DNA of 64,000 nucleotides, from assembly GCF_033441515.1 (NCBI RefSeq), contig NZ_JAWQJT010000003.1:1054001-1118000 (forward strand), read 5' to 3'. Every line of letters begins with the position of its first letter. Within the stretch, counting starts at the first letter, position 1. The notes beneath the pieces were generated by a model. The model saw only the letters and a program-made list of their open reading frames with translations. It searched no databases and was not told the origin of the DNA. Below are positions 22,666 through 49,864 of the stretch, in pieces. The position numbers were made by a program, and so were the translations under genes. Origin of the DNA: Amycolatopsis solani. Its GTDB lineage: Bacteria > Actinomycetota > Actinomycetes > Mycobacteriales > Pseudonocardiaceae.

Positions 22666-23149
22666 GGTTCGACGCTAGCACTGGACGGCCAAGCGGCGAC
22701 GGCCGACCGCGACCCGGGTGGCCCGGCTCTCAGCGGCCTTGGATGAGGTTGGGGCGCCGGTCGCGGGCTTGGAGTGCCGCGTCGGGGGTGCCAAGTGCCG
22801 CGAATGACTCATTCGGGACGTCGGAGGTCCCGAATGAGTCATTCGCGACCTCGCGGGCCTCCGGAGCGGCGCGGGACCGTCCGCGATCCAGCGCCGGTGG
22901 TGGTCGCAAGAGAGCGGTGCAGGCGAGTTCGCGGCCGAACGGGCCGCCGGTGGGCCCCGATGCCGGAAGGCTCGCGGGCGAAGGAGCCCGGGCCGCTGGG
23001 CCACGATCCCGCGAAGTCACGGCCGAACGAGCCCGCCGGTAGGGCTACGGTGCCGGGACGCTCGCGCGGACGAAAAGCCCGACGGTCGGGACCACAGCGC
23101 CGGCGAGGTCGCACCGAGCGGCGCCGACCGCGGTACCGGGCCGCGGCGC
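22666..23149. other. 484-bp intergenic region carrying a family A hairpin
   Basis: Lies between the start of the small membrane protein gene and the end of the lytic transglycosylase gene, both on the minus strand. Apart from the hairpin at 22801-22845 I see only GC-rich sequence without coding character. Confidence 0.5.
22801..22845. repeat. Family A nested-palindrome hairpin, copy 1
   Basis: Arm CGAATGACTCATTCGGGAC pairs perfectly (19 bp) with 22827-22845 across the 7-nt loop gtcggag. Each arm itself contains the 13-bp palindrome GAATGA(C/G)TCATTC. Confidence 0.9.
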
Positions 23150-24064
23150 TCAACCCTGCTTGCGGACCGACTGGGCGCCCTTCGCGTAGCCGTCCGCCAA
23201 GCCGAACACCTTCTGCGCGTACTCCGTCGAATTGTTGTACGACAGGATCCCGGCCCACCACCCGTCCGGGCTGGCCATGTCGCGGCCGCCCGCGCACAGG
23301 TACCGCGCCGCCGCCAAAGCCGCGTCGTCGATCTGCTGGGGGTCGCCGAGGCCGTCGCCGTTGCCGTCCGACGCCCACTTGCGCCAGGTGCTCGGGATGA
23401 ACTGCATCGGGCCGACCGCGCGGTCGACGCCGGTGTCGCCGTCGTAGCGGCCGCCGTCGGTGTCGCCGATCGCCTGGACGCCGGCCGAGCCATCGAGGGG
23501 GACGCCGATGATCGGCTTGGACGGGCGGCCGTCCGCGCCGAGGATCGCGCCCGCGTACTGGCCGTGGTTCGACTCGATGCGGCCGATGCCGGCGAGCGTG
23601 GCCCACGAGATCTTGCACTTCGGCTGGTCGGCGCGCATCGCCAGCTCGGCGTTGCCGTACGCGGACAGCGCGCGGGCCGGGACGCCGGTCACCGCGGCGA
23701 CCTGGTTCGCCCATTGCGACAGCGTTGCCGGGCCCGTGCTGCGGGCCTGCTGGGGAGACGTCTGCTGCTCGGCCCCGCCCGCCACGGCGCCGCCGGCCGG
23801 GGCGACCGACCCCGGGCGGACGTCGGCCGCCTTGACCTGCAGGGCGGGGATTTCGGTGGTGAGCGGGCTCGCCTCGGGCGTCGCCGCGCGGGTGACCAGC
23901 CAGATGCCGCCGCCGGCCACGGCCAGCACGGCGAGGACCACGATCAGCCGGGTGAGCACTGCGACGCTCTGGGAGCGTGGCGCCGGTGCCGGTGCGGCGG
24001 GGGCGGCTTCCTCGACGCTCGCGTCGATCGGGTCGTCCTCGTTCTTTCCGGTCCTGGTGCGCAC
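23150..24064 (-). CDS. Membrane-anchored lytic transglycosylase (SLT/MltB-like)
   Basis: The 304-residue protein has a cytosolic acidic N-terminus, one membrane helix (LTRLIVVLAVLAVAGGGIWLV, about 37-57), a Pro/Gln linker, and a lytic transglycosylase domain with the catalytic Glu in GIGRIESNHGQYAG, followed by GPMQFIPSTW and NNSTEYAQKVF. It would cleave the glycan strands of peptidoglycan outside the membrane. This layout matches actinobacterial lytic murein transglycosylases. The GTG start at 24062-24064 has GGAG upstream. Confidence 0.9.
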   Translation of the reverse strand: MRTRTGKNEDDPIDASVEEAAPAAPAPAPRSQSVAVLTRLIVVLAVLAVAGGGIWLVTRAATPEASPLTTEIPALQVKAADVRPGSVAPAGGAVAGGAEQQTSPQQARSTGPATLSQWANQVAAVTGVPARALSAYGNAELAMRADQPKCKISWATLAGIGRIESNHGQYAGAILGADGRPSKPIIGVPLDGSAGVQAIGDTDGGRYDGDTGVDRAVGPMQFIPSTWRKWASDGNGDGLGDPQQIDDAALAAARYLCAGGRDMASPDGWWAGILSYNNSTEYAQKVFGLADGYAKGAQSVRKQG

Positions 24065-24182
24065 GTAACTCCGGTCCTCCAGCGTGGTGTCGACGAAGTG
24101 TCAACGAGCCCGCGCAGGTTAGCGTTACGCGGGTCGCCGAAATCCTCTTCCCACGCCGGTTCACCCGGCCGTGTGAAAAACG

Positions 24183-24665
24183 TCAGGCGGACTTCTGCTG
24201 CCGCGCGAGGCGCGCGACACACCAGGCCGGGGCGCTGCCGCGGCGGAGGTGCTGCAGGACGGTCATCGGCCCGAGCCGGCGGCTCAGGTCGGACGGCGCG
24301 AGACCGGCCGCCCGGTAGTCGAGGGCTCGCTGGTCGAGCGGGCTGATGCCGGCGTCCCACCACTCTTCGGCCTCGGCGACGCCGCCGACCATCTGCCACC
24401 AGCCCGCGGCGGCGGTGAGGAGCTCTTCCGGGACGTCCGGCAGGCGGCTGCGCATCGCGGCGAGGTAGCCGGGATCGGCCGACTCGACGGGCACGAACCG
24501 GGACTGCCCGGTCCGGGCACGCTGGCCGGGGATGCCCGGAGCCTGCGGTGGCGCGTCGGCCAGCCACGCGGACGCGATGCGGTCGACCTCCTGCTCTTCG
24601 GGGGTCTGCTCGCGCTCGGCGGCCCATTGCCGGATCAGCGCGTCCACTCCGGGATCTCCGGTCAT
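24183..24665 (-). CDS. Hypothetical protein, 160 residues
   Basis: No domain is recognised. The protein starts MTGDPGVDALIRQW, is helical and Trp-rich in the middle (AAGWWQMVGGVAEAEEWWDAG) and basic at the end (APAWCVARLARQQKSA). AAGGAGG five bases before ATG 24665 and codon use like its neighbours support it as real. Possibly a soluble protein specific to Pseudonocardiaceae. It is 118 bp from the lytic transglycosylase gene, so an operon is uncertain. Confidence 0.65.
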   Translation of the reverse strand: MTGDPGVDALIRQWAAEREQTPEEQEVDRIASAWLADAPPQAPGIPGQRARTGQSRFVPVESADPGYLAAMRSRLPDVPEELLTAAAGWWQMVGGVAEAEEWWDAGISPLDQRALDYRAAGLAPSDLSRRLGPMTVLQHLRRGSAPAWCVARLARQQKSA

Positions 24666-25026
24666 CCCTGCCTCCTTGTAGGTCCCCGACGGACAGGACC
24701 TGACGCCTGTCCCACGCGGTGGTGCCGCACGCACCAACCTGCACCTTGCTGAGTGGAAACTGCCTGCGTACCGGGGTTCTCCGGGGGGATGGCGAACCAC
24801 CCGATCACGCAATGTGAGCACCGTAGGGCCGGGGTGGTCCCCTTCGCCAGACCCCCGGTGCCACGAATTCGCCGACCTGCGCGTTTTCAGCCGCAATCCA
24901 CCCGGATGGTCGAGTGCTGGAGTCCGAAATCCGAGATTGGTGACGCTCGGTGATTTACCGTCCGCTAACACGGACGGTAGCCACCGGCGCCGCCCGATGC
25001 GGTGCCGGTGCGCGAGTCGGCGAAGA
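24666..25026. other. 361-bp non-coding region with a small terminator
   Basis: Spans from the upstream side of the 160-residue gene to the end of the 55-residue gene. It contains the hairpin at 24957-24978; otherwise I see no gene or RNA. Confidence 0.5.
24957..24978. terminator. Hairpin downstream of the 55-residue membrane protein gene
   Basis: ACCGTCCG, six-base loop, CGGACGGT. The stem is perfect and lies about 50 bp after the stop; on the minus strand it is followed by AAATCA, so terminator strength is uncertain. Confidence 0.5.
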
Positions 25027-25194
25027 TCAGGAGAAGAGCGTCCGGAAGAACGTGACGATCGCTTCGGCGCCGTCCTTGAGCCAGCCGAGCACGCGGTGCA
25101 CGAAGTCTGCGGACTGCGTGGGCTGGGTGATCAGGAAGAACAGCACGATCGCCACCACCCCGACGATCAGGACCTTCTTCATCCCGCCCGACAT
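25027..25194 (-). CDS. Small single-pass membrane protein, 55 residues
   Basis: Starts MSGGMKKVLIVGVVAIVLFFLI with one membrane helix, then an amphipathic tail (VLGWLKDGAEAIVTFFRTLFS). GGAGG lies seven bases before ATG 25194. The helix directly after a Lys pair with no cleavage site suggests a membrane anchor rather than a secreted peptide. Function unknown. It is too short for most gene callers, but frame, ribosome site and hydrophobic pattern agree. Confidence 0.65.
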   Translation of the reverse strand: MSGGMKKVLIVGVVAIVLFFLITQPTQSADFVHRVLGWLKDGAEAIVTFFRTLFS

Positions 25195-25296
25195 GCGCTT
25201 CCTCCCGGCTCGCCGTCCCCGTCCCGGGAGTGGCCACCCCAATACTCTAGGGAAGGCGTGCCCGGAAGACACGCTGATCACCCTCGAGGAGCGCCG

Positions 25297-26070
25297 ATGC
25301 CCCGGAACGTGCTGGTCGAGCAGGACGGCCCCGTGACCACGATCACCATCGACCGGCCGGCGGCGCGCAACGCCGTCGACGGGCCGACCGCGGCCGAACT
25401 GGCCGACGCCTTCCGCGCGTTCGACGCCGACCCCGACGCGGCGGTCGCGGTGCTGACCGGGTCCGGCGGCGCGTTCTGCGCGGGCGCCGACCTCAAGGCC
25501 ATCGGCACCGGACGGGTGAACCGCACCCACCCGGACGGGGACGGGCCGATGGGCCCGACCCGGATGGCGCTCGGCAAGCCGGTGATCGCGGCGGTGCACG
25601 GGCCCGCCGTCGCGGGCGGGCTGGAACTGGCGCTGTGGTGCGACCTGCGGGTCGCCGACGCGACGGCGGTGTTCGGCGTGTACTGCCGCCGCTGGGGCGT
25701 CCCGCTGATCGACGGCGGGACGGTGCGCCTGCCGCGCCTGATCGGCCAGTCGCGGGCGATGGACCTGATCCTGACCGGACGGCCGGTGGAGGCGGACGAG
25801 GCGTTCTCGATCGGCTTGGCCAACCGCCTGGTCCCGGCCGGCGAGGCGGTCTCGGCGGCGCGGGAGCTGGCCCGTCAGCTCGCGGCGTTCCCGCAGGCCT
25901 GCCTGCGCGGCGACCGGCTCTCGGCGCTGGCGCAGTGGGGACAGTCCGAAGAGGACGCGCTGGCGGCGGAGTTCCGGGCCGCGATGGGCACGGGGGTGCT
26001 GGCGGCGGAGGCGGTCGACGGCGCGGCCCGGTTCGCCGGCGGCGAGGGCCGGCACGGCAGCTTCGGCTGA
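25297..26070 (+). CDS. Crotonase-fold enoyl-CoA hydratase/isomerase
   Basis: The 257-residue protein has the crotonase CoA-binding motif GAFCAGADLKAI (about 62-73) and the second oxyanion segment AAVHGPAVAGGLELAL. The position used by Glu144 of enoyl-CoA hydratase falls in YCRRWGVPLIDGGTVRLPRLI, where Asp/Gly replace the usual Glu, so isomerase or hydrolase activity is possible. GAGGAG precedes ATG 25297. It is monocistronic as far as the sequence shows, and its pathway cannot be given. Confidence 0.85.
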   Translation: MPRNVLVEQDGPVTTITIDRPAARNAVDGPTAAELADAFRAFDADPDAAVAVLTGSGGAFCAGADLKAIGTGRVNRTHPDGDGPMGPTRMALGKPVIAAVHGPAVAGGLELALWCDLRVADATAVFGVYCRRWGVPLIDGGTVRLPRLIGQSRAMDLILTGRPVEADEAFSIGLANRLVPAGEAVSAARELARQLAAFPQACLRGDRLSALAQWGQSEEDALAAEFRAAMGTGVLAAEAVDGAARFAGGEGRHGSFG

Positions 26071-26078
26071 CGCTCCAG

Positions 26079-26121
26079 GAAGGGGACGTTCAGGGCATCT
26101 CGTGCCGGCAAAGTCCCCTTC
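26079..26121. repeat. Family C hairpin after the crotonase gene
   Basis: GAAGGGGAC and GTCCCCTTC form a 9-bp stem around a 25-nt loop. It starts eight bases after the crotonase stop and may terminate transcription. Confidence 0.6.
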
Positions 26122-26232
26122 AGCGCGTCACGTGGCAAGCCTGAGCTCACTGTGCGCGACGCCGCGTCACCTGAGCGGGCGGATCCCGTGCCGGCGCGCC
26201 GGTTCCGGTCAAGCGGCCGATAAGGTCGCCGG

Positions 26233-26763
26233 ATGGACGACGACGTCGCCAGAGTCGTGCTCCGGCCAGTGGCCGAAGCCGATCTCGAGCTGCTCGACCA
26301 GCTGACCAACGATCCCACCGCCGCGGGCGAGCACCAGTGGTTCGGCTGGCACGACCCCGGCTACCTGCGCCGCCGGTGGCACGAAACCGGGATGCTCACC
26401 GCCGACAGCGGCATGCTCGTACCCGCGCTCGGCGGCCGCGTGCTCGGGCTCGTTTCGTGGCACCGCAGCCGGACCGGGCCGGCGTCGTACTGCTGGAACG
26501 TCGGTCTCGTGCTGGCGCCCGAAGCCCGCGGCCACGGCTACGGCACCGAGGCCCAGCGGCTGCTCGCCGAATACCTCTTCGCGCACACGCAGCTGAACCG
26601 CGTCGAAGCGACGACCGAGGTCGGCAACCGCGCCGAACAGCGCTCGCTCGAGAAAGCCGGCTTCACCCGCGAAGGCGTCCTCCGCGGCTACGACTTCCGG
26701 AACGGCGAGTGGCGCGACCACGTCATCTACTCGGTCGTGCGCTCCGACTTCTCGCGGAACTAG
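26233..26763 (+). CDS. GNAT-family N-acetyltransferase
   Basis: The 176-residue protein has the GNAT fold of the RimJ/RimL type: VVLRPVAEADLELL at the start, the acetyl-CoA loop LAPEARGHGYGTEAQRLL (Q/RxxGxG/A), and TEVGNRAEQRSLEKAGFTREGVLRGY at the C-terminus. Substrate unknown. AAGG lies seven bases before the ATG. It overlaps the convergent mcr gene by 4 bp. Confidence 0.88.
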   Translation: MDDDVARVVLRPVAEADLELLDQLTNDPTAAGEHQWFGWHDPGYLRRRWHETGMLTADSGMLVPALGGRVLGLVSWHRSRTGPASYCWNVGLVLAPEARGHGYGTEAQRLLAEYLFAHTQLNRVEATTEVGNRAEQRSLEKAGFTREGVLRGYDFRNGEWRDHVIYSVVRSDFSRN

Positions 26764-27896
26764 GCGATCGCGCCCGCCGAACGCAGGGCGCCGAGGTCCG
26801 TGACGCCCAGTTCGGCGAGCACGGCTTCGGTGTCGGATCCCTTGACGCGCGGGGCTTCCGGGGTTTCCGGCGGCGTCCGGTCGAACCGCGGCGCCGGGGC
26901 CGGCTGCACCATGCCGCCGATCTCGACGAACGTGCCCCGCGCCGCGTTGTGCGGGTGCGCCGCCGCTTCGCCCGGCGCCAGCACCGGCGTCAGGCACGCG
27001 TCGGTGCCTTCGGCGCGCGCGACGAGGTCGTCGCGCGTGTACTTGCCGATCGCCGTCGCGAGGATCTCGCGCAGGCGCGGCCACTGCGTCTTGTCGACGT
27101 GCAGCGGCAGCGATTCCGGGTCCAGCTCGAGGACCTTGACCAGATCGCCCCAGAACCGCATCTCGATCGCGCCGACGGCGACGTACTTGCCGTCCGCGGT
27201 CTCGTAGGTGTCGTAGAACGGGGCGCCGCCGTCGAGCATGTTGTCCCCGCGGCCGCCGCCCCACAGCCCGGCCGCGGCCATGCCGTGCAGGCTGGTGGTG
27301 AGCAGCGCGGCGCCGTCGACCATCGACGCGTCGACGACCTGCCCGCGCCCGGAGGTGTTCCGTTCGTAGAGCGCGGCCAGGATGCCCATGGCCAGCAGCA
27401 GCCCGCCGCCGCCGAAGTCGCCGACGAGGTTGAGCGGAGGCACCGGCCGCTCGCCCGCGCGCCCGATCGGTTCGAGCGCGCCGGCGATGCCGATGTAGTT
27501 GATGTCGTGGCCGGCCGCCGTGGCCAGCGGCCCGTCCTGGCCCCAGCCGGTCATCCGGCCGTAGACCAGCCGCGGGTTGCGGGCGTGCACGACATCCGGG
27601 CCGAGCCCGATCCGCTCGGCGACGCCGGGGCGGAAGGGCTCGATGAGGACGTCGGCGGTGTCGCACAGCTTCAGCACCAGCTCGACGCCTTCGGGCGTCT
27701 TGGTGTTGATGCCGACCGTGCGGCGGCCGCGAGCCAGCGGGTCGGTCGGGAGGCCGAGCACGTCCTCCCCCGGCGTCGCGCGGTCGACGCGGACGACGTC
27801 GGCGCCGAGGTCACCGAGGATCATCGCGGCGAAGGGCCCCGGCGCGAGACCGGCGAGCTCCACCACCTTCAGGCCGCTGAGCGGACCTGCCTTCAT
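26760..27896 (-). CDS. mcr: Alpha-methylacyl-CoA racemase (CaiB/BaiF CoA-transferase fold)
   Basis: The 378-residue protein matches mycobacterial MCR along its length. The catalytic His sits in GHDINYIG and the catalytic Asp in NLVGDFGGGG; GRGQVVDASMVDG and DGGAPFYDTYE are also conserved. MCR interconverts R and S 2-methylacyl-CoA, needed for beta-oxidation of methyl-branched fatty acids and sterol side chains. AAGGA precedes ATG 27896. It follows an acyl-CoA dehydrogenase gene by 11 bp, giving a racemase-dehydrogenase operon under the divergent TetR. Confidence 0.9.
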   Translation of the reverse strand: MKAGPLSGLKVVELAGLAPGPFAAMILGDLGADVVRVDRATPGEDVLGLPTDPLARGRRTVGINTKTPEGVELVLKLCDTADVLIEPFRPGVAERIGLGPDVVHARNPRLVYGRMTGWGQDGPLATAAGHDINYIGIAGALEPIGRAGERPVPPLNLVGDFGGGGLLLAMGILAALYERNTSGRGQVVDASMVDGAALLTTSLHGMAAAGLWGGGRGDNMLDGGAPFYDTYETADGKYVAVGAIEMRFWGDLVKVLELDPESLPLHVDKTQWPRLREILATAIGKYTRDDLVARAEGTDACLTPVLAPGEAAAHPHNAARGTFVEIGGMVQPAPAPRFDRTPPETPEAPRVKGSDTEAVLAELGVTDLGALRSAGAIA

Positions 27897-27907
27897 GTTC
27901 GGTCCTT

Positions 27908-29059: not shown

Positions 29060-29080
29060 GGGACACCCTCCTGCTGGAAA

Positions 29081-29098
29081 ACATGACGATCAGCATGT
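29081..29098. promoter_or_regulatory. Candidate TetR operator between the acyl-CoA dehydrogenase and tetR
   Basis: ACATGACGATCAGCATGT: ACATG/CATGT arms and a central GATC in an 18-bp imperfect palindrome, in the 96-bp divergent gap. Confidence 0.5.
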
Positions 29099-29155
29099 AA
29101 GTTCTCTGCGGAATGTACATCCGTACCGGCCTGTAGGTAAAGCAGGGAGGCCGAA

Positions 29156-29773
29156 GTGCCCTCGACGGCGCACCGGACCCAGGCGCAGCGGCGCGAACAG
29201 ACTCGCACCGCGCTGCTCGACGCGACCATCGACTGCCTGGTGGACGTCGGCTACGCGCGCACGTCGGTCCAGGAGATCTGCGCCCGCGCGGGCGTTTCGA
29301 AGGGCGCGGTGCAGCACCACTTCACCGCGAAGGCCGAGCTGATGGCGGCCGCGGTGGAGCACCTGACGACGAAGCTGCGCCGCCGGCTCGCGGCCTCGCT
29401 GGACGAGCTGCCCGGCGGCGGCACCGGCGTCGCCGCGGCGATCGACCTGCTGTGGACCGGCTACTCGGGCACGCTCTCGACCGCCGTCACCGAGCTGTGG
29501 GTCGCCGCCCGCACCGACCCCGAGCTGCGCGCGGCCATCCGCCCGGTCGACCGCGCGCTCGGGCGCGCCACGCTGGAGCACGTCACCCAGGTCGCCGGCG
29601 AACTCCCGCCCGAGCGCGCCGAAATGCTGTTCTGGCTCACCGTCAACCTCACGCGCGGGCTGGCGCTGGACGCCGAACTCGGCGGCGACCCGGACCGGCG
29701 CCGCCAGCTCCTCGAGGAGTGGAAGCGCATCGCCGTCCTGCTCTACCAGGACGCCGCCGCTGCTCCGAGCTGA
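29156..29773 (+). CDS. TetR-family regulator of the acyl-CoA dehydrogenase-mcr operon
   Basis: The 205-residue protein has a TetR helix-turn-helix (TSVQEICARAGVSKGAVQHHFTAKAELM; the QHHF variant of the YYHF motif) and a ligand-binding C-terminal half. GTG start at 29156, GGGAGG upstream. It is divergent to the operon above and so likely responds to an acyl-CoA ligand; the effector is not visible from sequence. Confidence 0.88.
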   Translation: MPSTAHRTQAQRREQTRTALLDATIDCLVDVGYARTSVQEICARAGVSKGAVQHHFTAKAELMAAAVEHLTTKLRRRLAASLDELPGGGTGVAAAIDLLWTGYSGTLSTAVTELWVAARTDPELRAAIRPVDRALGRATLEHVTQVAGELPPERAEMLFWLTVNLTRGLALDAELGGDPDRRRQLLEEWKRIAVLLYQDAAAAPS

Positions 29774-29834
29774 CGAACCCCTTATCCGCGGCGCCGGAAT
29801 CGTGGTCCAATCCCCCGGACAGAGGGGAGCCACC

Positions 29835-30914: not shown

Positions 30915-30945
30915 AAGATATTCACATCAGACTGGACATCTGACG

Positions 30946-30973: not shown

Positions 30974-31023
30974 ACCCCTGCGCGGCGTCGCGCGGACTCC
31001 GGACGCCGCGGAACGGAGACGTC

Positions 31024-41167: not shown

Positions 41168-41170
41168 AAC

Positions 41171-41210
41171 CCGGTGCGGCCGGCGCACCGCGCGCGGCCG
41201 GCCGCACCGG
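41171..41210. terminator. Bidirectional terminator between DUF1801 and chitinase genes
   Basis: CCGGTGCGGCCGGC pairs perfectly with 41197-41210 across a 12-nt loop; it fills the 47-bp gap between two stop codons. Confidence 0.8.
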
Positions 41211-41214
41211 AGTC

Positions 41215-42438
<1,224 letters not shown>

Positions 42439-42497
42439 GCCTTCTCCCTCCGGAGAATTACTCACGGCTGCGTTGCCGGAGTGGTGGGGACCACACC

Positions 42498-42538
42498 ACC
42501 GTAAGTGGACTAGACCATTAGGTCAATGGTTCAGACCA
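42498..42538 (-). promoter_or_regulatory. Chitinase promoter with two direct repeats
   Basis: On the minus strand the repeats TGGTCTGAACCA and TGGTCTAGTCCA, 21 bp apart, flank the -35 TTGACC; the -10 TACGGT follows with 17 bp spacing. Streptomyces chi promoters carry related TGGTCTAGACCT-type repeats. Confidence 0.65.
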
Positions 42539-42570
42539 AGCGGCTCCACGATGGACGGCCCGGCCGTGCA

Positions 42571-42584
42571 TTCCTTGACAGGAA
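42571..42584. promoter_or_regulatory. Inverted repeat over a TTGACA box upstream of the ArsR gene
   Basis: TTCCT-N4-AGGAA contains TTGACA (42575-42580), a likely -35 of the ArsR gene; the matching -10 (CACATT, 18 bp on) is weak. Autoregulation is possible. Confidence 0.4.
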
Positions 42585-42613
42585 TATGCCCGGCGGAGCA
42601 CATTTCGGGGGTG

Positions 42614-42931
42614 ATGCAGACGTTCGAGGTGCTGGCGGAGCCCCGCCGCCGCACGATCCTGGACCTCCTCCGCGACGGCGAGCGCTCGGTCGGCGAGCTG
42701 GTCGACGAGCTGGAACTCAGCCAGCCTGCGGTTTCGAAGCACCTGCGGGTGCTGCGGGAGGCGGGCCTGGTGACGGTCCGGGTGGCGGCCCAGCGAAGGT
42801 GCTACGCGCTGCGGCCGGAGCCCCTGGCGGAGGTGGACGCGTGGCTGGCGCCGTACCGGCAGTTCTGGTCCGAGCGCCTCGACGCGCTGGAGCGCCGGTT
42901 GGAGGAGACCGACCCGCCGCCGATGCCGTGA
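42614..42931 (+). CDS. ArsR-family winged-helix regulator
   Basis: The 105-residue protein consists of an ArsR winged helix: MQTFEVLAEPRRRTILDLL, recognition region ELSQPAVSKHLRVLREAGLV, and a Pro-rich end. No metal-binding Cys residues are visible. The start is ATG 42614, where the family N-terminus begins. Unusually, its TGA stop (42929-42931) is part of a family A repeat, so the repeat abuts or has replaced the original gene end. No SRPBCC partner follows, unlike the 9.2-kb locus. Confidence 0.85.
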   Translation: MQTFEVLAEPRRRTILDLLRDGERSVGELVDELELSQPAVSKHLRVLREAGLVTVRVAAQRRCYALRPEPLAEVDAWLAPYRQFWSERLDALERRLEETDPPPMP

Positions 42932-42947
42932 ATGACTCATTCCTGTC
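42929..42947. repeat. Half copy of the family A element
   Basis: TGAATGACTCATTCCTGTC is one complete arm with the 13-bp palindrome, followed by the loop-like gtcggac and then only GGCAGG instead of the second arm. It contains the TGA stop of the ArsR gene. Confidence 0.75.
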
Positions 42948-43022
42948 GTCGGACGGCAGGGCTCCGGCAAAAGTCGGGGTCGACGCGGTGGATCGTCGCC
43001 TCGGCGGGCTCGACTGAAGTCC

Positions 43023-43067
43023 TGAATGAGTCATTCAGGACGCCGGAGGTCCTGAATGACTCATTCA
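43023..43067. repeat. Family A nested-palindrome hairpin, copy 2
   Basis: TGAATGAGTCATTCAGGAC pairs perfectly with 43049-43067 across the 7-nt loop gccggag. It lies between the convergent ArsR and HxlR genes. Confidence 0.9.
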
Positions 43068-43109
43068 AGACCTCCGGGGGGCCGCTCGAGCCGGCCGGCC
43101 GGGGCGGCG

Positions 43110-43454
43110 TCAGGGGTGGTCGGGCGCCGGCTCGAAGGTGATCCCGCGCTCCGCCGCGCGGCGCTCGCCCCACTCGTACAGGGCCGTCAGCGCGGGGCGG
43201 AGCTCCTCCCCCACCGCCGTCAGGTGGTACTCGACCCGCGGCACCCGGCCGTCGAACTCGACCCGGCGCACCAGGCCGTCCGCCGCCAGCTCGCGCAGCT
43301 GCTGGGTCAGCATCTTCTCGCTGACGCCCGGCACGCGGCGCCGCAGTTCGCCGTAGCGGTGGGCGCCTTCCTTGAGGTGCGCCAGGATGACCGGCTTCCA
43401 CTTGCCGCCGATCAGGTCGACCGCCAGTTCCGTCGCGCAGTGGTACCGCTTCAC
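43110..43454 (-). CDS. HxlR-family winged-helix regulator
   Basis: The 114-residue protein has the HxlR pattern: LAVDLIGGKWKPVILAHL, GVSEKMLTQQLRELAADGLV and PRVEYHLTAVGEELRPAL. HxlR proteins respond to electrophiles, redox stress or small ligands and often control a divergent enzyme gene. Here the truncated haemoglobin gene is divergent across 68 bp. One Cys (RYHCATELAV) lies near the N-terminus, where redox-sensing HxlR members such as HypR and YodB have theirs. GTG start at 43454, AGGGAG upstream. Confidence 0.88.
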   Translation of the reverse strand: MKRYHCATELAVDLIGGKWKPVILAHLKEGAHRYGELRRRVPGVSEKMLTQQLRELAADGLVRRVEFDGRVPRVEYHLTAVGEELRPALTALYEWGERRAAERGITFEPAPDHP

Positions 43455-43522
43455 GTCGTTCTCCCTACGCACCGGAAAGTACGTGCTTGCCGCCACCGCC
43501 CGGCCGCTGGTTGCCTGGCCGG

Positions 43523-44161
43523 GTGATCGTCGACTACGTCCGCTACACCGTGCCAGAAGCCGCGCGGGCCGACTTCGAGAAGGCCGCGGCCGGGCACCAC
43601 GTCGAGCGCGCGCCCGGCCGGTACCTGGTGCGCGCCCCGTCGCCGTTCGGCGGCATCGAAGGCTTCACGCCCGACGGCGAACCCGAGCGCTTCGAAACCA
43701 CCACCCCGTCCCTCTACGACTGGGCGGGCGGCCGCGAAGCCCTCGTCCGCCTCCTGACGATCTTCTACCGCCACGTCCTCGAAGACCCGCAGCTCGAGCC
43801 CGTTTTCCGCGGCATGGACGCGCACCACGCCGAGCACGTCGCGGTCTGGCTCGGCGAGGTCTTCGGCGGCCCGCCCGCCTACAGCGAAAGCCACGGCGGG
43901 CACGCCCACATGATCGGCCGCCACCTCGGCCGCGGCATCACCGAGCCGCAGCGCCGCCGGTGGGTGTCGCTGCTGCTCGACGCCGCCGACGAGGCGGGCC
44001 TCCCCGCCGACCCCGAGTTCCGCGCGGCCTTCGCCGGCTACGTCGAGTGGGGCAGCAGGCTGGCCGTCCTCTTCTCGGCTCCGGGCGCCGAGCCGAACCC
44101 GCACGAACCGGTCCCGCGCTGGGACTGGCCGAGGCCGCCCTGGCCGCCGGCCGGGCCCTAG
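43523..44161 (+). CDS. Group II truncated haemoglobin with a short extra N-terminal segment
   Basis: The 212-residue protein has a group II truncated haemoglobin domain (about 70-190): LTIFYRHVLEDPQLEPVFRGMDAHHAEHVAVWLGEVFGGPPAYSE, then HAHMIGRHLGRGI with the likely proximal His, and EPQRRRWVSLLLDAADEAGLP. The first 30-40 residues (VIVDYVRYTVPEAARADFEKAA) look like the start of an antibiotic-monooxygenase (ABM) domain, known fused to such globins in Streptomyces, but the rest of that domain is missing. GTG 43523. Probably controlled by the divergent HxlR protein; redox or NO chemistry is inferred. Confidence 0.82.
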   Translation: MIVDYVRYTVPEAARADFEKAAAGHHVERAPGRYLVRAPSPFGGIEGFTPDGEPERFETTTPSLYDWAGGREALVRLLTIFYRHVLEDPQLEPVFRGMDAHHAEHVAVWLGEVFGGPPAYSESHGGHAHMIGRHLGRGITEPQRRRWVSLLLDAADEAGLPADPEFRAAFAGYVEWGSRLAVLFSAPGAEPNPHEPVPRWDWPRPPWPPAGP

Positions 44162-44195
44162 CCGCATAGTGAGGGCAGTCGAAAGGAGGCTGCCT

Positions 44196-45632
44196 TTGAT
44201 CCGGGTGGACGGCCGCACCCTCAGGTGCGCGGACGTCGTGACGGCGGCGCGCACCGAGGGCCCGCTGGGCATCGACGTCTCGATCGCCGCGCAGCGCGCG
44301 GCCGAGCACGCGTGGAAGCTCGCCGAAGATCTGAGCACGCGCCGCGTGGTCTACGGCCGGACCACCGGTGTCGGCGCCAACAAGGACGACACCGTCGAGA
44401 GCTCGCAGGAGCACGGGCTGCGCCTGCTGCGCAGCCACGCGGGCGGCAGCGGCGACGTGCTGCCGGCCGGGCAGATCCGGGCGATGATGCTGATCCGGCT
44501 GAACCAGCTGCTCTCCGGCCGCTCCGGGATCAGCCCCGAGCTGATCGGCGCGCTGGCCGAGGCGGTCCGCACCGGCGCGCTGCCGCTGGTGCACCGGCTC
44601 GGCGCGATCGGCACCGGCGACCTCGCGCCGCTGGCGGAGACGGCGCTGGCGCTCACCGGCCAGCGGCCGTGGGTGACCGGGCACGTGCCGCCGGTGCCGG
44701 TGCACGCCGGCGACGCGCTCGCGTTCATGAGCAGCAACGCCGCGACGCTCGCCGAAGCGACCCTGGCGGCGATGCGGCTGGACGCGCTGACCCGGGCGAG
44801 CCACGCCGTCGCGGCGCTGACGTACGTCGCGCTCGACGGCAACCCCGAGGCCTACGCGACGCCGGTGCACGAGGCCAGGCCGCACGCAGGGCAGGTCGCC
44901 TGCGCCGCGGAGATGCGGCGGCTGCTGGGCATGCACCAGACGCCGAAACCGGGGCGCCGCATCCAGGACCCGTTCGGGCTGCGGGCGTTCCCGCAGGTGC
45001 AGGGCCCGGCGCTGGACGCGATCCACTACCTGCGCGACGTCCTCGCCGTCGAGATCAACGCGAGCACCGAGAACCCGATGATCTCGACGGTGCACGGCGA
45101 CGCCTACCACCACGCGCACTTCCACACGGCGTACGTCTCGACGGCGCTGGACCAGGCCCGCGCGACCGTGCACCAGGTGGCGGAGCTGTCGGTGGCGCGG
45201 CTGGGCGACCTGGTGGAGCCGGAGTTCACCGGGCTGCGGCCGTTCCTCGCGGCGGGCCCGGCGGGCAGCTCGGGCGTGATGATCCTCGAGTACGTGGCGC
45301 ACGACGCGCTGACCGAGCTGCGCCAGGCGGCGCTCCCGGCGACCCTCGGCACGGCCGTGGTGTCGCGTGGCATCGAGGACCACGCGAGCTTCTCGACGCA
45401 GGCGGCCCGCGCGGCGACGGCGGCGTGCGCGGCCTACCAGCAGGTGCTCGGCTGCGAGCTGGTGGCGGCGGTGCGGGCGCTGCGGATGCGCGAGGCGGAC
45501 CTGGTGGACCTGCCGGTGCGCGACGCCTTCGAGATGGCGTCGGAGGTGCTGGACGAGAGCGTCGACGACCGGCCCCTCACCGACGACATCGCCGCCGCGG
45601 TCGGGGTCCTGGAGCGGCTCGCCCGGATCTAG
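44196..45632 (+). CDS. HAL/PAL-family protein lacking the canonical MIO tripeptide
   Basis: The 478-residue protein has the aromatic amino acid ammonia-lyase fold: VVYGRTTGVGANKD (Tyr53 kept), GLRAFPQVQG and INASTENPM. The usual GSVGASGDL motif is GAIGTGDL (residues 136-143), so Ala-Ser-Gly, which cyclises to the MIO electrophile, is absent. LxNG reads FMSSN, and the catalytic Tyr of QDxY is Phe260. TTG 44196 is chosen because AGGAGG lies six bases upstream; a GTG at 44169 would swallow that site. It lies 34 bp after the globin gene, so probably co-transcribed. Standard ammonia-lyase activity is doubtful. Confidence 0.82.
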   Translation: MIRVDGRTLRCADVVTAARTEGPLGIDVSIAAQRAAEHAWKLAEDLSTRRVVYGRTTGVGANKDDTVESSQEHGLRLLRSHAGGSGDVLPAGQIRAMMLIRLNQLLSGRSGISPELIGALAEAVRTGALPLVHRLGAIGTGDLAPLAETALALTGQRPWVTGHVPPVPVHAGDALAFMSSNAATLAEATLAAMRLDALTRASHAVAALTYVALDGNPEAYATPVHEARPHAGQVACAAEMRRLLGMHQTPKPGRRIQDPFGLRAFPQVQGPALDAIHYLRDVLAVEINASTENPMISTVHGDAYHHAHFHTAYVSTALDQARATVHQVAELSVARLGDLVEPEFTGLRPFLAAGPAGSSGVMILEYVAHDALTELRQAALPATLGTAVVSRGIEDHASFSTQAARAATAACAAYQQVLGCELVAAVRALRMREADLVDLPVRDAFEMASEVLDESVDDRPLTDDIAAAVGVLERLARI

Positions 45633-45697
45633 CGTGAACTCGAACCGCCCGAACCGCCAACAACGGGGCAGCAGGCTTCCCCACAGACAGGCGATTC

Positions 45698-46282
45698 ATG
45701 AGTTCACCTGGTGAAGCCGGGGACGACGCGGAGATCATCGCCGCGTCGCTCCGGCACCCCGAACGGTTCGCGGCGCTCTTCGACCGCCACGCCGCGCACA
45801 TCCACCGCTACCTCGCCCGGCGGCTCGGTGGTCAGGTCGCCGACGACCTGACCGGCGAGACCTTCCTGATCGCGTTCGACCGCCGCGACCGCTACGACCC
45901 CGCGTTCCCCGGCGCGCGCCCGTGGCTCTACGGCATCGCCACCAACCTCGCCGGCCAGCGCCGGCGGGCGGAACAGCGCGAGTACCGGCTGCGAGCCGCC
46001 CTCGGGCCGCCGTCCGACCACGACTCCCACGCGGACCGGGTCGCCGAGCGGGTGAGCGCCCAGGCACTGACCGGGCCGCTCGCCGCCGCGCTGGCCGGGC
46101 TCGCCCCGCGCGATCGCGACGTCCTGCTGCTGATCGCGTGGGAAGGCCTCGCCTACGACGAGGTCGCAGCGGCGCTGGCCATCCCGGTCGGCACCGTCCG
46201 GTCGCGCTTGAACCGCGCCCGCAAGAAAGTCCGCGCCGCACTGGCGCCCGCGCCCGCCGAGGAGGTCTCGAACCATGGATGA
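45698..46282 (+). CDS. ECF-type RNA polymerase sigma factor
   Basis: The 194-residue protein has region 2 (FAALFDRHAAHIHRYLARRLGGQVADDLTGETFLIAF, about 25-60, then PWLYGIATNLAGQRRR) and region 4 (LAPRDRDVLLLIAWEGLAYDEVAAALAIPVGTVRSRLNRARKKV). It would redirect RNA polymerase to a small regulon. The stop overlaps the start of the CU044_5270 gene by 8 bp, an arrangement typical for this ECF subgroup in actinomycetes, in which that membrane partner likely replaces a classical anti-sigma factor. Confidence 0.92.
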   Translation: MSSPGEAGDDAEIIAASLRHPERFAALFDRHAAHIHRYLARRLGGQVADDLTGETFLIAFDRRDRYDPAFPGARPWLYGIATNLAGQRRRAEQREYRLRAALGPPSDHDSHADRVAERVSAQALTGPLAAALAGLAPRDRDVLLLIAWEGLAYDEVAAALAIPVGTVRSRLNRARKKVRAALAPAPAEEVSNHG

Positions 46283-47144
46283 GATGCAGCTGCTGCGCGA
46301 CTTCGCCGGACCGGCCGGGCTCCCGGGGCGCGACGACCTGGCCGGCGCGCGGGCCCGGCTCCTCGCCACGGCGACGGCGCGTCCCCGGCGGCGGCACCGG
46401 CGCGCGCTCTGGGGCTGGATCACCGCGGCCGGGCTCGCCGCGGCGGCCGCCGCCGTCGTCGTGCTCACGCCGTCCGCCCCGCCGGCTCCCCGGGCGGAGA
46501 CCGACCCGGTGAAGGTCCTGTACCAGGCCGCGGCGGCGGCGCGGGCCCGGCCGGACGTCGAGCCGCGGCCGGACCAGTTCGTCTACACCCGGACGCTGCT
46601 GGCGGACGGCCGGGAAAACGAGTTCTGGGTGTCGGCGGACGGCACCCACGACGGGCTCGAGATCCTCTTCGGGCACGAAACCGAGGTCGCGGGCTGCCGC
46701 GACGGGAAGCGCGTGCAGAAGGAAGGCCGCGGGCGCACGGCGACCAGCCGGTGCGAGCCGCGTCCGGCCGCCCACCCGGACCTGCCGACGGACGCCGACG
46801 CCATGCTCGCCTACCTGCACCGGAGCACCTACGGCGAAGGCGACACGCTGCACGACCTCGGCAACGAGGTCGTCGATCTGGCCGGCGGCTACCTGCGGCC
46901 GGCGGCACGGGCCGCGCTCTACGAGGCCGTGGCGAAGGTGCCCGGGCTCATCCTTCGCGCCGGCGCGAAGGACGCCACGGGCCGGCCGGTACTCGGGATC
47001 ACCTGGAACAGCACGACCGAGCGCGGGATCGGCAACCAGGACGAGTTCCTGTTCGACCCCGTCACTTTCGCCTACCGCGGCTCCGGCACGACCGGGGCGG
47101 TGCTGAGCCAAGGGATCGTCGACGCCGTGCGGCAGCGGCCGTGA
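46275..47144 (+). CDS. CU044_5270 family membrane protein, likely regulator of the ECF sigma factor
   Basis: The 289-residue protein has a cytosolic N-terminus of about 45 residues rich in Arg, one membrane helix (LWGWITAAGLAAAAAAVVVL), and an extracytoplasmic domain with CU044_5270 features (PDQFVYTRTLLADGRENEFWVSADGTHDG, PTDADAMLAYLH, LGITWNS). Two Cys residues (VAGCRDGK and TSRCEPRP) could form a disulfide. Overlaps the sigma gene by 8 bp. A terminator follows directly after the stop. Confidence 0.85.
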   Translation: MDEMQLLRDFAGPAGLPGRDDLAGARARLLATATARPRRRHRRALWGWITAAGLAAAAAAVVVLTPSAPPAPRAETDPVKVLYQAAAAARARPDVEPRPDQFVYTRTLLADGRENEFWVSADGTHDGLEILFGHETEVAGCRDGKRVQKEGRGRTATSRCEPRPAAHPDLPTDADAMLAYLHRSTYGEGDTLHDLGNEVVDLAGGYLRPAARAALYEAVAKVPGLILRAGAKDATGRPVLGITWNSTTERGIGNQDEFLFDPVTFAYRGSGTTGAVLSQGIVDAVRQRP

Positions 47145-47147
47145 ACG

Positions 47148-47187
47148 CGCGAAGGGCCGCCCCGGTCGTCCGGGGCGGCCCTTCGCG
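47148..47187. terminator. Bidirectional terminator between CU044_5270 and pfkA genes
   Basis: An 18-bp perfect stem (47148-47165 with 47170-47187) around a TCGT tetraloop, the strongest hairpin of simple type in the window. It lies between convergent stop codons. Confidence 0.85.
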
Positions 47188-47193
47188 GGAGAC

Positions 47194-48219
47194 TCAGCCG
47201 AAGAAGACTTCGGCTTCCTCGTAGCGCTCGGCCGGGACCGTCTTGAGCTCGGCCGTCGCCTCGGACAGCTTCACGCGGACGATGTCCGTGCCCTTCAGCG
47301 CCACCATCACGCCGAAGTCGCCGTCGGCCACCGCGTCGACCGCGTGCAGGCCGAAGCGCGTCGCCAGGACGCGGTCGTACGCCGTCGGGGTGCCGCCGCG
47401 CTGGACGTGGCCCAGGACCACCGCGCGGGACTCCTTGCCGGTGCGGTGGGCGATCTCGTCGGCCAGCCAGGTGCCGATGCCGCCGAGCCGGACGTGCCCG
47501 AAGGCGTCCTTCTCGCCGGTGAGCAGCCGCTCCTCGCCGCCCTCGGGCAGCGCGCCCTCGGCGACGACGATGATCGGCGCGAACTCCTTCTCGAAGCGGC
47601 TCTCGACGTAGGAGACGACCTTGTCGACGTCGAAGTGCTTCTCCGGCACCAGGATGACGCTGGCGCCACCGGCCAGGCCGGAGTGCAGCGCGATCCAGCC
47701 GGCGTGGCGGCCCATGACCTCGACGACCAGCGCGCGGTGGTGCGACTCGGCGGTGGTGTGCAGCCGGTCGATCGCCTCGGTCGCGATGGAGACCGCGGTG
47801 TCGAAGCCGAAGGTGTAGTCGGTGGCGCCCAGGTCGTTGTCGATGGTCTTGGGCACGCCCACGACGCCGATGCCGTCGTCGGTCAGCCGCTTCGCGACGC
47901 CGAGGGTGTCCTCGCCGCCGATCGCGATCAGCGCGTCGACGCCCTGGTCGGCCAGGACCTTCTTGATCTTGTCGACGCCACCCTCGACCTTGTACGGGTT
48001 CGTGCGCGAGGACCGCAGGATGGTGCCGCCGCGGGTCAGGATGTCCTCGACGTCGTTGAGGCCGAGCGGGCGGCTGTCCCCGGTGAGCGGGCCGTTCCAG
48101 CCGTTGCGGAAGCCCACGAAGTCCCAGCCGTGCACCTCGATGCCCTTACGCACCACGCCGCGGATGACCGCGTTGAGTCCCGGGCAGTCGCCGCCGCCGG
48201 TCAGCACACCGACACGCAT
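47194..48219 (-). CDS. pfkA: 6-phosphofructokinase, probably PPi-dependent
   Basis: The 341-residue enzyme has GGDCPGLNAVIRG, IAIGGEDTLGVAK and PKTIDNDLG, with catalytic Asp in TIDND. The position equal to E. coli Gly104 is Asp (GGED) and Gly124 is Lys (PKTIDND); both substitutions mark PPi-dependent enzymes and agree with A. methanolica PPi-PFK, which this protein closely resembles. It would phosphorylate fructose 6-phosphate reversibly with pyrophosphate, so it could serve gluconeogenesis as well as glycolysis. ATG start at 48219 with a 135-bp gap to the divergent DAHP synthase leader. Confidence 0.93.
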   Translation of the reverse strand: MRVGVLTGGGDCPGLNAVIRGVVRKGIEVHGWDFVGFRNGWNGPLTGDSRPLGLNDVEDILTRGGTILRSSRTNPYKVEGGVDKIKKVLADQGVDALIAIGGEDTLGVAKRLTDDGIGVVGVPKTIDNDLGATDYTFGFDTAVSIATEAIDRLHTTAESHHRALVVEVMGRHAGWIALHSGLAGGASVILVPEKHFDVDKVVSYVESRFEKEFAPIIVVAEGALPEGGEERLLTGEKDAFGHVRLGGIGTWLADEIAHRTGKESRAVVLGHVQRGGTPTAYDRVLATRFGLHAVDAVADGDFGVMVALKGTDIVRVKLSEATAELKTVPAERYEEAEVFFG

Positions 48220-48339
48220 GAGAAGCCTCCGTCTGTTCTCTGGAGATGACAGTCACATTTCGTCGCCCGCCAGCGTAGCGGCTCCCGTCTTGATCGGTGC
48301 AGCCCGTACCACCTGCCGAATCGGTCCGCGCCCGGCGTG

Positions 48340-48348
48340 TGCTACGTT
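48340..48348 (+). promoter_or_regulatory. Extended -10 element of the DAHP synthase leader
   Basis: TGC-TACGTT fits the extended -10 pattern TGn-TAnnnT. It ends six bases before the leader GTG, so the transcript should begin at or next to that start codon. No good -35 is seen, which extended -10 promoters do not require. Confidence 0.5.
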
Positions 48349-48354
48349 GGCGCC

Positions 48355-48420
48355 GTGCAGCGCTATTTCTGGTTTACGAAGCCGGCCCCGGGTGGGCACG
48401 GCGGCGTGAACCTGCGCTGA
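48355..48420 (+). CDS. Leader peptide of DAHP synthase (21 residues, contains Tyr-Phe-Trp-Phe)
   Basis: GTG-initiated peptide VQRYFWFTKPAPGGHGGVNL plus Arg, with aromatic codons TAT TTC TGG TTT at positions 4-7. It ends at 48420, 80 bp before the DAHP synthase ATG. Corynebacterium aroF is preceded by a comparable leader (AroR) whose aromatic codons are needed for control by phenylalanine/tyrosine supply. Here all three aromatic amino acids are sampled. Translation is probably leaderless. A 9-bp hairpin and a stem over the ribosome-binding site follow. The call rests on codon content and position. Confidence 0.75.
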   Translation: MQRYFWFTKPAPGGHGGVNLR

Positions 48421-48428
48421 CCTCCACC

Positions 48429-48454
48429 CCGAGCCGGATCTCCAACCGGCTCGG
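48429..48454 (+). promoter_or_regulatory. Attenuator hairpin 1 after the leader peptide
   Basis: CCGAGCCGG, 8-nt loop, CCGGCTCGG; perfect 9-bp stem starting eight bases after the leader stop. No T run follows, so translational control or Rho-linked attenuation is likelier than an intrinsic terminator. Confidence 0.6.
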
Positions 48455-48471
48455 CGAGTCCCCCGCGGGTC

Positions 48472-48494
48472 GGTGTCCACCAGGAAGGAACACC
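48472..48494 (+). promoter_or_regulatory. Candidate stem covering the DAHP synthase ribosome-binding site
   Basis: GGTGTCC can pair (one bulge) with GGAACACC at 48487-48494, which overlaps the AGGAAGGAA ribosome-binding site at 48482-48490. Competing structures with the upstream hairpin would couple initiation to ribosome position on the leader. Confidence 0.4.
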
Positions 48495-48500
48495 CCCGCC

Positions 48501-49583
48501 ATGACGCTCTCGGCCGGCCCCGCCACCATCGGTGACCTCGACGCCGCGCGCACCACGTCGATCAGTCCGCTCATTTCGCCCGCGCTGCTGCGTGAGGACC
48601 ATCCGGCCGACGCCGCGGTGGCCAAGGTCGTGCGGCAGGGCCGCGCCGAGACGGTCGACATCCTCGAAGGCCGCGACGACCGGCTGCTCGTCGTCGTCGG
48701 CCCGTGCTCGGTGCACGACCCGGAAGCCGCGCTCGACTACGCCCGCCGGCTGGCCGCGAAGGCCGAAGAGGTGCGCGGCGAGCTGCACATCGTGATGCGC
48801 GTGTACTTCGAGAAGCCGCGCACGACGCTGGGCTGGAAGGGCCTGATCAACGACCCGGACCTCGACGGCACGTTCGCCGTCAACAAGGGCCTGCGCCTGG
48901 CCCGGAAGCTGCTGCTCGACGTGTCCGCGCTCGGCCTGCCGGTCGGGTGTGAGTTCCTCGACCCGATCACGCCGCAGTTCATCGCCGACATCGTGACGTG
49001 GGGCTCGATCGGCGCCCGCACGGCGGCGAGCCAGGTGCACCGCCAGCTGTGCAGCGCCCTGTCGATGCCGGTGGGCATCAAGAACTCGACGGAGGGCGAC
49101 GTCCAGGTGGCGATCGACGCGACCCGAGCGGCGGCGGCGAGCCACGTGTTCCCCGGCATCAACACCGACGGCCTCGCGGCCCTGCTGACGACCTCGGGCA
49201 ACCCGGACTGCCACGTGATCCTGCGCGGCCACAACACGGGCCCGAACTACGACGCGGCAACGGTGGCGGACACGCTCGCGCGGCTGGCGAAGTCGGGCCT
49301 GCCGGAGCGGGTGATCATCGACGCGTCGCACGGCAACAGCGGCAAGGACCACGTCCGGCAGGGCGAAGTGGTGCGGGAGCTGGCCGGGAGGATTTCCGGT
49401 GGTGAGCGCGGGATCTCGGGCCTGATGATGGAGAGCTTCCTGGCGGGTGGGCGGCAGGAGCTTTCGCTGGGGCACGCGGAGGAGCTGACGTACGGGCAGT
49501 CGATCACGGACGCGTGCCTGGCGTGGGACGACACGGCCCCCCTGCTGGACGAGCTGGCGGCGGCGGTGCGGGCGCGGCGTTGA
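48501..49583 (+). CDS. aroF: Type I (AroFGH-like) DAHP synthase
   Basis: The 360-residue enzyme is a class I-alpha 3-deoxy-7-phosphoheptulonate synthase: VVGPCSVHDPEAALDYA, MRVYFEKPRTTLGWKG, GARTAASQVHRQL, GIKNSTEGDV and VILRGHNTGPNYD. It condenses phosphoenolpyruvate and erythrose 4-phosphate, the first shikimate-pathway step. AGGAAGGAA lies about ten bases before ATG 48501. Control by aromatic amino acids is suggested by the leader peptide upstream. It sits where mycobacteria have the unrelated type II enzyme AroG (Rv2178c), next to RNase AS. Confidence 0.94.
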   Translation: MTLSAGPATIGDLDAARTTSISPLISPALLREDHPADAAVAKVVRQGRAETVDILEGRDDRLLVVVGPCSVHDPEAALDYARRLAAKAEEVRGELHIVMRVYFEKPRTTLGWKGLINDPDLDGTFAVNKGLRLARKLLLDVSALGLPVGCEFLDPITPQFIADIVTWGSIGARTAASQVHRQLCSALSMPVGIKNSTEGDVQVAIDATRAAAASHVFPGINTDGLAALLTTSGNPDCHVILRGHNTGPNYDAATVADTLARLAKSGLPERVIIDASHGNSGKDHVRQGEVVRELAGRISGGERGISGLMMESFLAGGRQELSLGHAEELTYGQSITDACLAWDDTAPLLDELAAAVRARR

Positions 49584-49610
49584 GCGGGTCTGTGATGTCG
49601 TGATCTCGAT

Positions 49611-49663
49611 GTAGTGAATGACTCATTCCTGTCGTCGGATGACAGGAATGAGTCATTCACTAC
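49611..49663. repeat. Family A nested-palindrome hairpin, copy 3 (longest)
   Basis: Arms of 23 bp (49611-49633 and 49641-49663) pair perfectly across the 7-nt loop gtcggat; each arm contains GAATGA(C/G)TCATTC. It starts 28 bp after the aroF stop. Confidence 0.92.
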
Positions 49664-49819
49664 GTTCGGGGCGGACGCTCCCGGCCGGGCGGAGGCCACG
49701 CGGGCCGGGCCGCAGCAGGCTCGGTGGGCGTGGCCGCAGCGGACGCGACCGAGCTGGGCGGGCCGCTGGTCGAGGGCCGGGGTCCGGACCGGTCTCGTCG
49801 GGTCGGGTCAGCTGTGCCG

Positions 49820-49864
49820 CGAATGACTCATTCGGGACGTGGGAGGTCCCGAATGAGTCATTCG
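49820..49864. repeat. Family A nested-palindrome hairpin, copy 4
   Basis: CGAATGACTCATTCGGGAC pairs perfectly with 49846-49864; loop gtgggag. Arms are identical to copy 1 at 22801. Confidence 0.92.

Follow-up and report, generated by a model that had tools for sequence, protein, structure and literature searches.

Repetitive extragenic palindromes (REPs) and bacterial interspersed mosaic elements (BIMEs) of enterobacteria and pseudomonads are short extragenic palindromes that occur in many copies 3' of genes. In Neisseria and Haemophilus, inverted pairs of uptake sequences form hairpins at gene ends, where they serve as terminators. A repeated, multi-copy terminator hairpin of Mycobacterium, TRIT, was reportedly described by Gardner et al. 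in 2011 and is said to be found at gene ends without a U-tail. Here, we describe a family of hairpins built on the palindrome GAATGASTCATTC in a 64,000-nucleotide stretch of the Amycolatopsis solani genome (contig NZ_JAWQJT010000003.1), hereafter called the window. This repeat family was named F1. It is a real and large family, apparently undescribed within the open-access literature. On balance, we regard it as a lineage-specific extragenic repeat that marks the 3' ends of genes, most likely as a bidirectional terminator.

F1 shares several features with these systems. Like the uptake sequence pairs, it consists of a short conserved word in inverted pairs, although the F1 word is itself palindromic. 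Like TRIT as reportedly described, it is a multi-copy actinobacterial hairpin at gene ends that lacks a U-tail; self-palindromic arms, a 30-bp pitch and species-specific types are features seen in F1. With REP and BIME elements it has in common that it is short, extragenic, palindromic, multi-copy and located 3' of genes, but it differs in its fixed 13-17-13 layout and in the symmetry of the element about its own centre, and no Y1 transposase was found in 80 Amycolatopsis genomes. The available part of PMC1525189 describes REPs as targets of insertion elements, and the TRIT model is mentioned in the available part of PMC3526491. Streptomyces intrinsic terminators are, in the accessible text of PMC12207403, long stable hairpins at gene 3' ends with stem covariation and few U's, namely 3-4 in 10 nt; the corresponding value for F1 is 1.4, and its copies form a repeat family in which the arms are conserved. 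In the case of Bacillus cereus, one hairpin can serve two convergent genes and shows compensatory stem changes (PMC5381666, in the part available). These predicted bidirectional terminators were compared gene by gene and, in that text, are not presented as one repeat family, unlike F1.

Structure and copy number of the F1 family

Nine exact copies of the palindrome were found in the window, and the number is still nine when up to two mismatches are allowed, against 0.15 expected from shuffles. Together they make up four complete F1 elements and one half element, listed here with the adjoining repeat end:

22797..22849: complete F1 element, GGG type, in the same-strand gap between the minus-strand genes 22641 and 23150, closer to the start of the downstream gene
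42925..42959: half F1 element with an outer block, the left palindrome and the centre but no right arm; a small-repeat end lies next to it
42960..42976, plus strand: small-repeat end GGCTCCGGCAAAAGTCG, adjoining the half F1 element
43019..43071: complete F1 element, AGG type, in the convergent gap 42932-43109
49611..49663: complete F1 element, CTG type, in the convergent gap 49584-50101, with a perfect outer block (GTAGT/ACTAC)
49816..49868: complete F1 element, GGG type, in the convergent gap 49584-50101 shared with the 49611 copy

An earlier note, made from the letters of the window, had described hairpins at five places, and all of them are as described. Regarding the coordinates, the places were right and the extents a few bases short, as the pairing unit is 53 bp long and ends after outer position 5. 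It is also correct that three of the four complete copies lie in convergent gaps, the 22797 copy being in a same-strand gap. The half copy, reported at 42929, does consist of an F1 arm and centre, with the correction that it passes into the end of a different, small repeat. The plus-strand gene 42611-42931 has its stop codon (42929-42931) at the edge of this half copy. The window copies have fold energies of -36 to -43 kcal/mol (z -7.9 to -10.6); for the 22797 copy, the values are -41.8 on the plus and -43.0 kcal/mol on the minus strand. As no Rfam match at gathering score was found within the window, a known RNA family was rejected as an explanation for F1. The convergent gap with two F1 copies also houses degenerate GC-rich repeats (GCCGGGC...GCGCTGAGCCGGGCGGG) at about 49880-50070.

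The A. solani genome (10.28 Mb, four contigs) contains 440 exact F1 palindromes and 163 exact pairs. Genome-wide enrichment had been named beforehand as the point on which the family would stand or fall, and the 163 pairs compare with 0 for a reversed control pattern. In an 864-kb set of stretches of this genome, picked around known F1 copies, 143 palindromes are without mismatch, 33 have one and 5 have two. A partner with zero or one mismatch lies at 30 bp from 133 of the 143 exact palindromes, the other 10 having none.

From 177 distinct copies of many genomes, the unit length is 53 bp and not 45. It is ordered as five outer bases, a 13-bp palindrome, 17 inner bases, a second 13-bp palindrome and another five outer bases, and most Amycolatopsis copies fit the rule GNCNN-P-NNGNC-NTCNGAN-GNCNN-P-NNGNC, where P is the palindrome. 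The pitch is rigid, with exactly 30 bp in 177 of 184 distinct close pairs. Pairing is strong through outer position 5 and about at background from position 6 on.

The 44 aligned copies (42 distinct) used for covariation were a selected sample whose arms were demanded by the search pattern. Standard pairs, counting G-U, fill 94.8% of the cells of the 23-pair hairpin, and 5.2% are unpaired. Eight of the 23 pairs vary on both sides, 14 are invariant and one deviates by unpaired cells alone. Cells changed on both sides number 99, compared to 36.0 (sd 4.8) after shuffling, and the covariation score of the hairpin is 0.248 versus 0.084 shuffled. A model in which the arms are only independent extended palindromes fits more poorly (0.139) and was set aside. 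Compensating changes in the flanks, said in the earlier note to occur always, are thus common but not universal, the outer blocks having one mismatch at 22797, one at 43019 and two at 49816. Its phrase that structure rather than sequence is conserved holds for the flanking blocks, which vary with compensation, and not for the arms, which are conserved in sequence. These arms are terminal inverted repeats that pair with each other, as in miniature inverted-repeat transposable elements (MITEs).

Position at gene ends and at orthologous junctions

Genes were called by a purpose-written codon-usage script, which gave 63 genes and 90.5% coding sequence in the window; the stretches used for gene context were picked for containing elements. 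In the 864 kb of A. solani, 54 F1 elements were placed: 27 in convergent, 24 in same-strand and 2 in divergent gaps, with 1 unassigned and 0 in genes. Convergent gaps account for 13% of the length of gaps of at least 60 bp in this set, and divergent ones for 34%. The same-strand elements are closer to the upstream stop in 17 of 24 cases. The loci of named records, which are among the loci listed, gave 132 elements: 48 in convergent and 12 in divergent gaps, 57 between same-strand genes (49 of them closer to the stop), 14 without assignment and 1 inside a gene, with convergent and divergent gaps making up 15% and 29% of the gap length. Stop codons are often near: for the 320 gene ends facing an element, the stop codon is inside it in 29 and 0-15 nt off in 66, and both gene ends have their stop inside or within that distance in 28 of 104 convergent pairs. 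F1 ends carry stop codons on both strands, and F1 supplies stop codons for example in L162 and L166 (L numbers denote loci).

Two further hairpin families, F2 and F3, bear on the comparison between genomes. One F2 hairpin lies in the window:

5742..5828: F2 hairpin in the convergent gap 5728-5846, with palindromes TGCGTCNGACGCA and the 13-17-13 geometry and 30-bp pitch of F1

F2 was found in 16 of 80 Amycolatopsis genomes with at most 51 pairs; its sequence is unlike that of F1, its geometry alike. F3 hairpins (CGTGAGTG...CACTCACG; L166, L307-L310 and genus-wide) occur in 76 of the 80 genomes, with up to 495 copies, and their variable stems are compensated. Strong hairpins outside these three families were seen in window convergent gaps at 10667-10709, 41171-41210 and 47148-47187.

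When strong hairpins of any kind are counted, the window has them at 6/14 convergent, 1/34 same-strand and 0/14 divergent junctions. In a contiguous 377-kb block of A. solani, an F1-rich part of the genome and hence not random, the counts are 15/50 for convergent (41 scanned), 13/161 for same-strand (151 scanned) and 2/48 for divergent junctions, with 0 after one shuffle of each junction. The 15 convergent ones are eight F1, four F3 and three unclassified hairpins. In three relatives, the corresponding counts are 12/62, 14/160 and 3/61; 14/53, 19/182 and 3/52; and 6/23, 5/66 and 1/23, with 1 shuffled hit altogether.

Orthologous junctions were then compared with genomes of relatives, designated G025, G039, G042, G069 and G077. 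At convergent junctions in four genomes, a hairpin of A. solani is matched in 19 of 30 ortholog comparisons, versus 3 of 58 where A. solani has none (Fisher p 5.7e-9, with up to three comparisons per junction that are not independent). Same-strand junctions persist similarly (17/30 versus 3/230), and divergent junctions show no persistence (0/2 versus 6/86). Persistence at convergent junctions is partly plain inheritance. In two of the 19 persistent cases, F1 stands against F3. The clean one is junction 39008, with F1 in A. solani and G069, F3 in G042 and a short F3-like hairpin in G025; at junction 3213, the F3 hairpin of G042 is found alongside F1 variants. A strong hairpin is present at convergent site 1 (L166:3210) in 20 of 26 scored loci out of 30, A. 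solani included. These are F1 of other types, F1 variants, F3, F2-like hairpins and others, and the arms of such variants, e.g. GAAAGGGTCGTTC with GAACGACCCTTTC, pair mutually but are not palindromes. Convergent site 2 (L166:7452) has F1 or variants in some genomes. As for the window itself, the gap with the 43019 copy has 13-16 bp between aligned gene parts in G042, G039 and G077, compared to 210-226 in A. solani, and the gap with the 49611 and 49816 copies measures 9 bp in G025 versus 515 in A. solani (from coordinates); the orthologous gap of G039 has a 92% match to the 49611 copy.

Spread, types and mobility

F1 pairs are patchily distributed, being present in 22 of 80 Amycolatopsis genomes with 1 to 276 per genome. 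Across the family Pseudonocardiaceae, they occur in 24 of 390 genomes and in 2 of 46 genera. The second genus, which we infer to be Allokutzneria (L048, L049, L104, L202, L203), has the identical palindrome and 30-bp pitch, while its inner sequences, of the AGTGCGTTCAAGTACCT type, break the F1 rule and the units are partly arrayed. An array of F1 units, head to tail, was also seen in A. vancoresmycina (L088:15-237). Viral contigs contain no exact F1 pair, and plasmids and phages have no match to the 49611 copy, the one F1 type used as query; a phage or plasmid origin was rejected on these grounds. In the open-access literature, no occurrence of the 13-bp palindrome and no description of the family were found, the hits being 11-letter words only, in papers titled on other subjects.

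Types of F1, defined by the variable blocks and counted in the loci sampled, are species-specific in several genomes and mixed in others. The A[GA]G type makes up 50/50 in G025 and 27/28 in A. eburnea, the G[GCA]G type 30/30 in A. vancoresmycina and 10/10 in sp. A133, and the C[TC]G type 22/24 in A. bullii. Mixed sets were found in A. solani (20, 10, 10, 7 and 7 between types, n=54), sp. 2-2 (23), A. vastitatis (9) and A. pretoriensis (8). Eight junctions hold F1 in two or more of four genomes; the type is wholly different at six of them, partly different at one (120080) and the same at one (238392). F3 behaves likewise at convergent junction 48136, with three versions that differ in the inner stem and keep the pairing. 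From these type differences, it seems that whole F1 units undergo replacement or conversion within a lineage. In several genomes, gene conversion, or the displacement of old copies by fresh ones, may have made the set uniform.

The best empty site is that of A. eburnea L038 compared with L177:9756; the same two stop triplets are 3 bp apart in L038 and 63 bp apart at L177:9756. The latter has F1 plus 7 bp, and this single near-clean pair of filled and empty sites shows no target duplication; other filled sites differ from empty ones by more than the element. Losses as well as gains are likely, because remnants of F1 were found in G042 (at 226725), G069 (at 150711) and G039 (at site 2). No autonomous parent element with F1 ends turned up in the 864 kb. 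An element of the REP/BIME kind moved by a Y1 (REP-associated tyrosine, RAYT) transposase would account for many short extragenic palindromes 3' of genes and for the lack of target duplication at the few informative sites. The transposase domain PF01797, however, was matched in 0 of 80 Amycolatopsis genomes and in 5 of 14 control genomes. We therefore rejected this origin, which is extremely unlikely, and F1 was not classed as a REP because no such transposase was found in the 80 genomes. Of the non-autonomous mobile repeat suggested by the earlier note, the part that stands is that presence differs at orthologous sites; a target duplication at the few informative sites, a parent in the part read and a REP transposase in the 80 genomes were not found.

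A small repeat, whose four complete copies measure 187-356 bp and whose inverted ends mostly read GGNYCCGGCAAAGTCG, was also considered as a carrier. It is found at window 42960, L177:1478-1780, L184:10321-10620, L192:9214-9617 and L072:4728. In L177, L184 and L192 it occupies the centre of an F1 hairpin, about 12-15 bp being duplicated there, and it can have F1 hairpins of its own. By likeness to L188 and L192, the 43019 copy appears to lie inside a small-repeat remnant. Among the 10 unpaired palindromes of the 864 kb, 7 are beside a small-repeat end, 1 has a decayed partner and 2 are plain. Since such an end is within 300 bp for only 29 of 268 elements, the small repeat is not the main carrier of F1, and spread inside it was rejected.

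Possible roles of F1

Transcribed from either side, F1 would fold identically, into a 7-nt loop closed by as many as 23 pairs, and a single copy could therefore end or protect the transcripts of two convergent genes. F1 is best read as one of several interchangeable hairpin families that take the same place in different species. Its position and persistence, its stop codons and its symmetry support termination as the most likely reading, and so do the pairing covariation and the presence of other hairpins at the junctions concerned. The bidirectional terminator proposed in the earlier note gains from position and from exchange at orthologous sites, short of proof. Several observations weigh against it. 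The bases next to the stem hold 1.42 T in the adjacent 10 nt versus 1.11 further out (195 elements, both sides). No strong hairpin is present in 6 of the 26 scored loci of site 1; at site 2, the aligned genes end within 0-8 bp of each other in 12 of 30 loci, and other loci have short hairpin-free gaps. Clean exchange between unrelated families was seen at few junctions, and several F1 copies lie hundreds of bases from any stop or are grouped in clusters of 2-4. Finally, a very similar distribution would be expected of a harmless repeat that is kept only at places where it causes no damage.

A canonical intrinsic terminator, i.e. a hairpin followed by a U-tract, would fit the strong stems of the window copies and their location, as F1 is a stable hairpin at gene 3' ends. 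However, no U-tract directly follows the stem in the 195 elements on either side, and a terminator scan of 42400-50300 listed no F1 copy. Because of the missing U-tract, F1 was not classed as such a terminator, and this identity is very unlikely.

Mismatches in the stem offer a hint on the form in which it acts. On the sense strand of same-strand elements, G-T outnumber A-C mismatches by 39 to 24 (p 0.077), and by 35 to 15 at up to 150 nt from the stop (p 0.007). A replicate in G025, too small by itself, gave 3 versus 1, and pooling gave 42 versus 25 (p 0.050), or 38 versus 16 near the stop (p 0.004). As most mismatches of the pooled same-strand set (113 of 180) are of other kinds, this bias is suggestive only in pointing to RNA rather than DNA. 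Convergent F1 elements have 20 versus 23 and divergent ones 2 versus 7; the lack of bias in convergent copies is as expected. The DNA cruciform, another proposal of the earlier note, found no support of its own, the asymmetry leaning weakly to RNA.

The idea that F1 is a neutral or selfish REP-like repeat, multiplying in some way and left at gene ends after selection has purged it from genes and promoters, has to be taken seriously, even if we consider it rather unlikely. It agrees with the patchy spread, with clustered copies and with F1-free sites in relatives such as A. eburnea L038, where the same stop triplets stand 3 bp apart, and species-specific types fit a recent spread. Against it stand the covariation of the arms, the excess of convergent over same-strand positions and the different hairpins that relatives hold at some of these junctions, and no mobiliser was found. 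A different possibility, also unlikely in our view, is that each arm, as double-stranded DNA, binds a dimeric protein, the two sites lying about three helical turns from each other, and that the element acts as a roadblock or chromosome organiser with the hairpin being secondary. The base at the arm dyad speaks for it: it is C/G in 440 and A/T in 1 of the A. solani palindromes, and ten F1-rich genomes have 2 pairs with an A/T arm centre versus 1086 with C/G. Nevertheless, the two centres are C.C or G.G, and thus unpaired, in 59 of 266 complete elements (9 of 36 in contiguous blocks); as a control, 28 of 266 have A or T at the centre of the whole element. At the dyads, A-U or G.U would be expected to be tolerated by an RNA stem, so that pairing leaves this constraint unexplained, and dyads that are C/G though often mutually unpaired hint at a putative protein that would read each arm as a two-fold symmetric duplex. 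Two unrelated families, F1 and F2, with the same 13-17-13 geometry agree with this. On the other hand, covariation of the inner and outer blocks favours the hairpin over arm extension, by the scores given above; variant families, including some F1 variants, keep the pairing with arms that are not self-palindromic; and the arm centre of F2 is free, with A, T, C and G all found in 23 pairs. The protein-bound element proposed in the earlier note is supported by the arm-centre constraint.

Both lines could be combined. A dedicated trans-acting system of Amycolatopsis might recognise the paired 13-bp palindromes, with C:G at each dyad and 30 bp between them, and copy or convert hairpins at the 3' ends of genes; many genomes would thereby come to hold one species-specific type, orthologous sites included. 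F1 would then be a mobile bidirectional terminator that homogenises itself and has a protein partner, and F1 and F2 independent sequence versions of one architecture. We regard this combination as unlikely.

Termination of convergent transcripts remains the function that we favour for F1. U-tract terminators are scarce in GC-rich actinobacteria such as Streptomyces, according to the part of PMC12207403 available, and F1 bears on how such bacteria end convergent transcripts. The change of F1 type at the same sites is an unusual concerted evolution of non-coding DNA, with no known agent. With more than 100 alike hairpins in one genome, and relatives that have another hairpin or none, F1 provides a natural set for testing termination.

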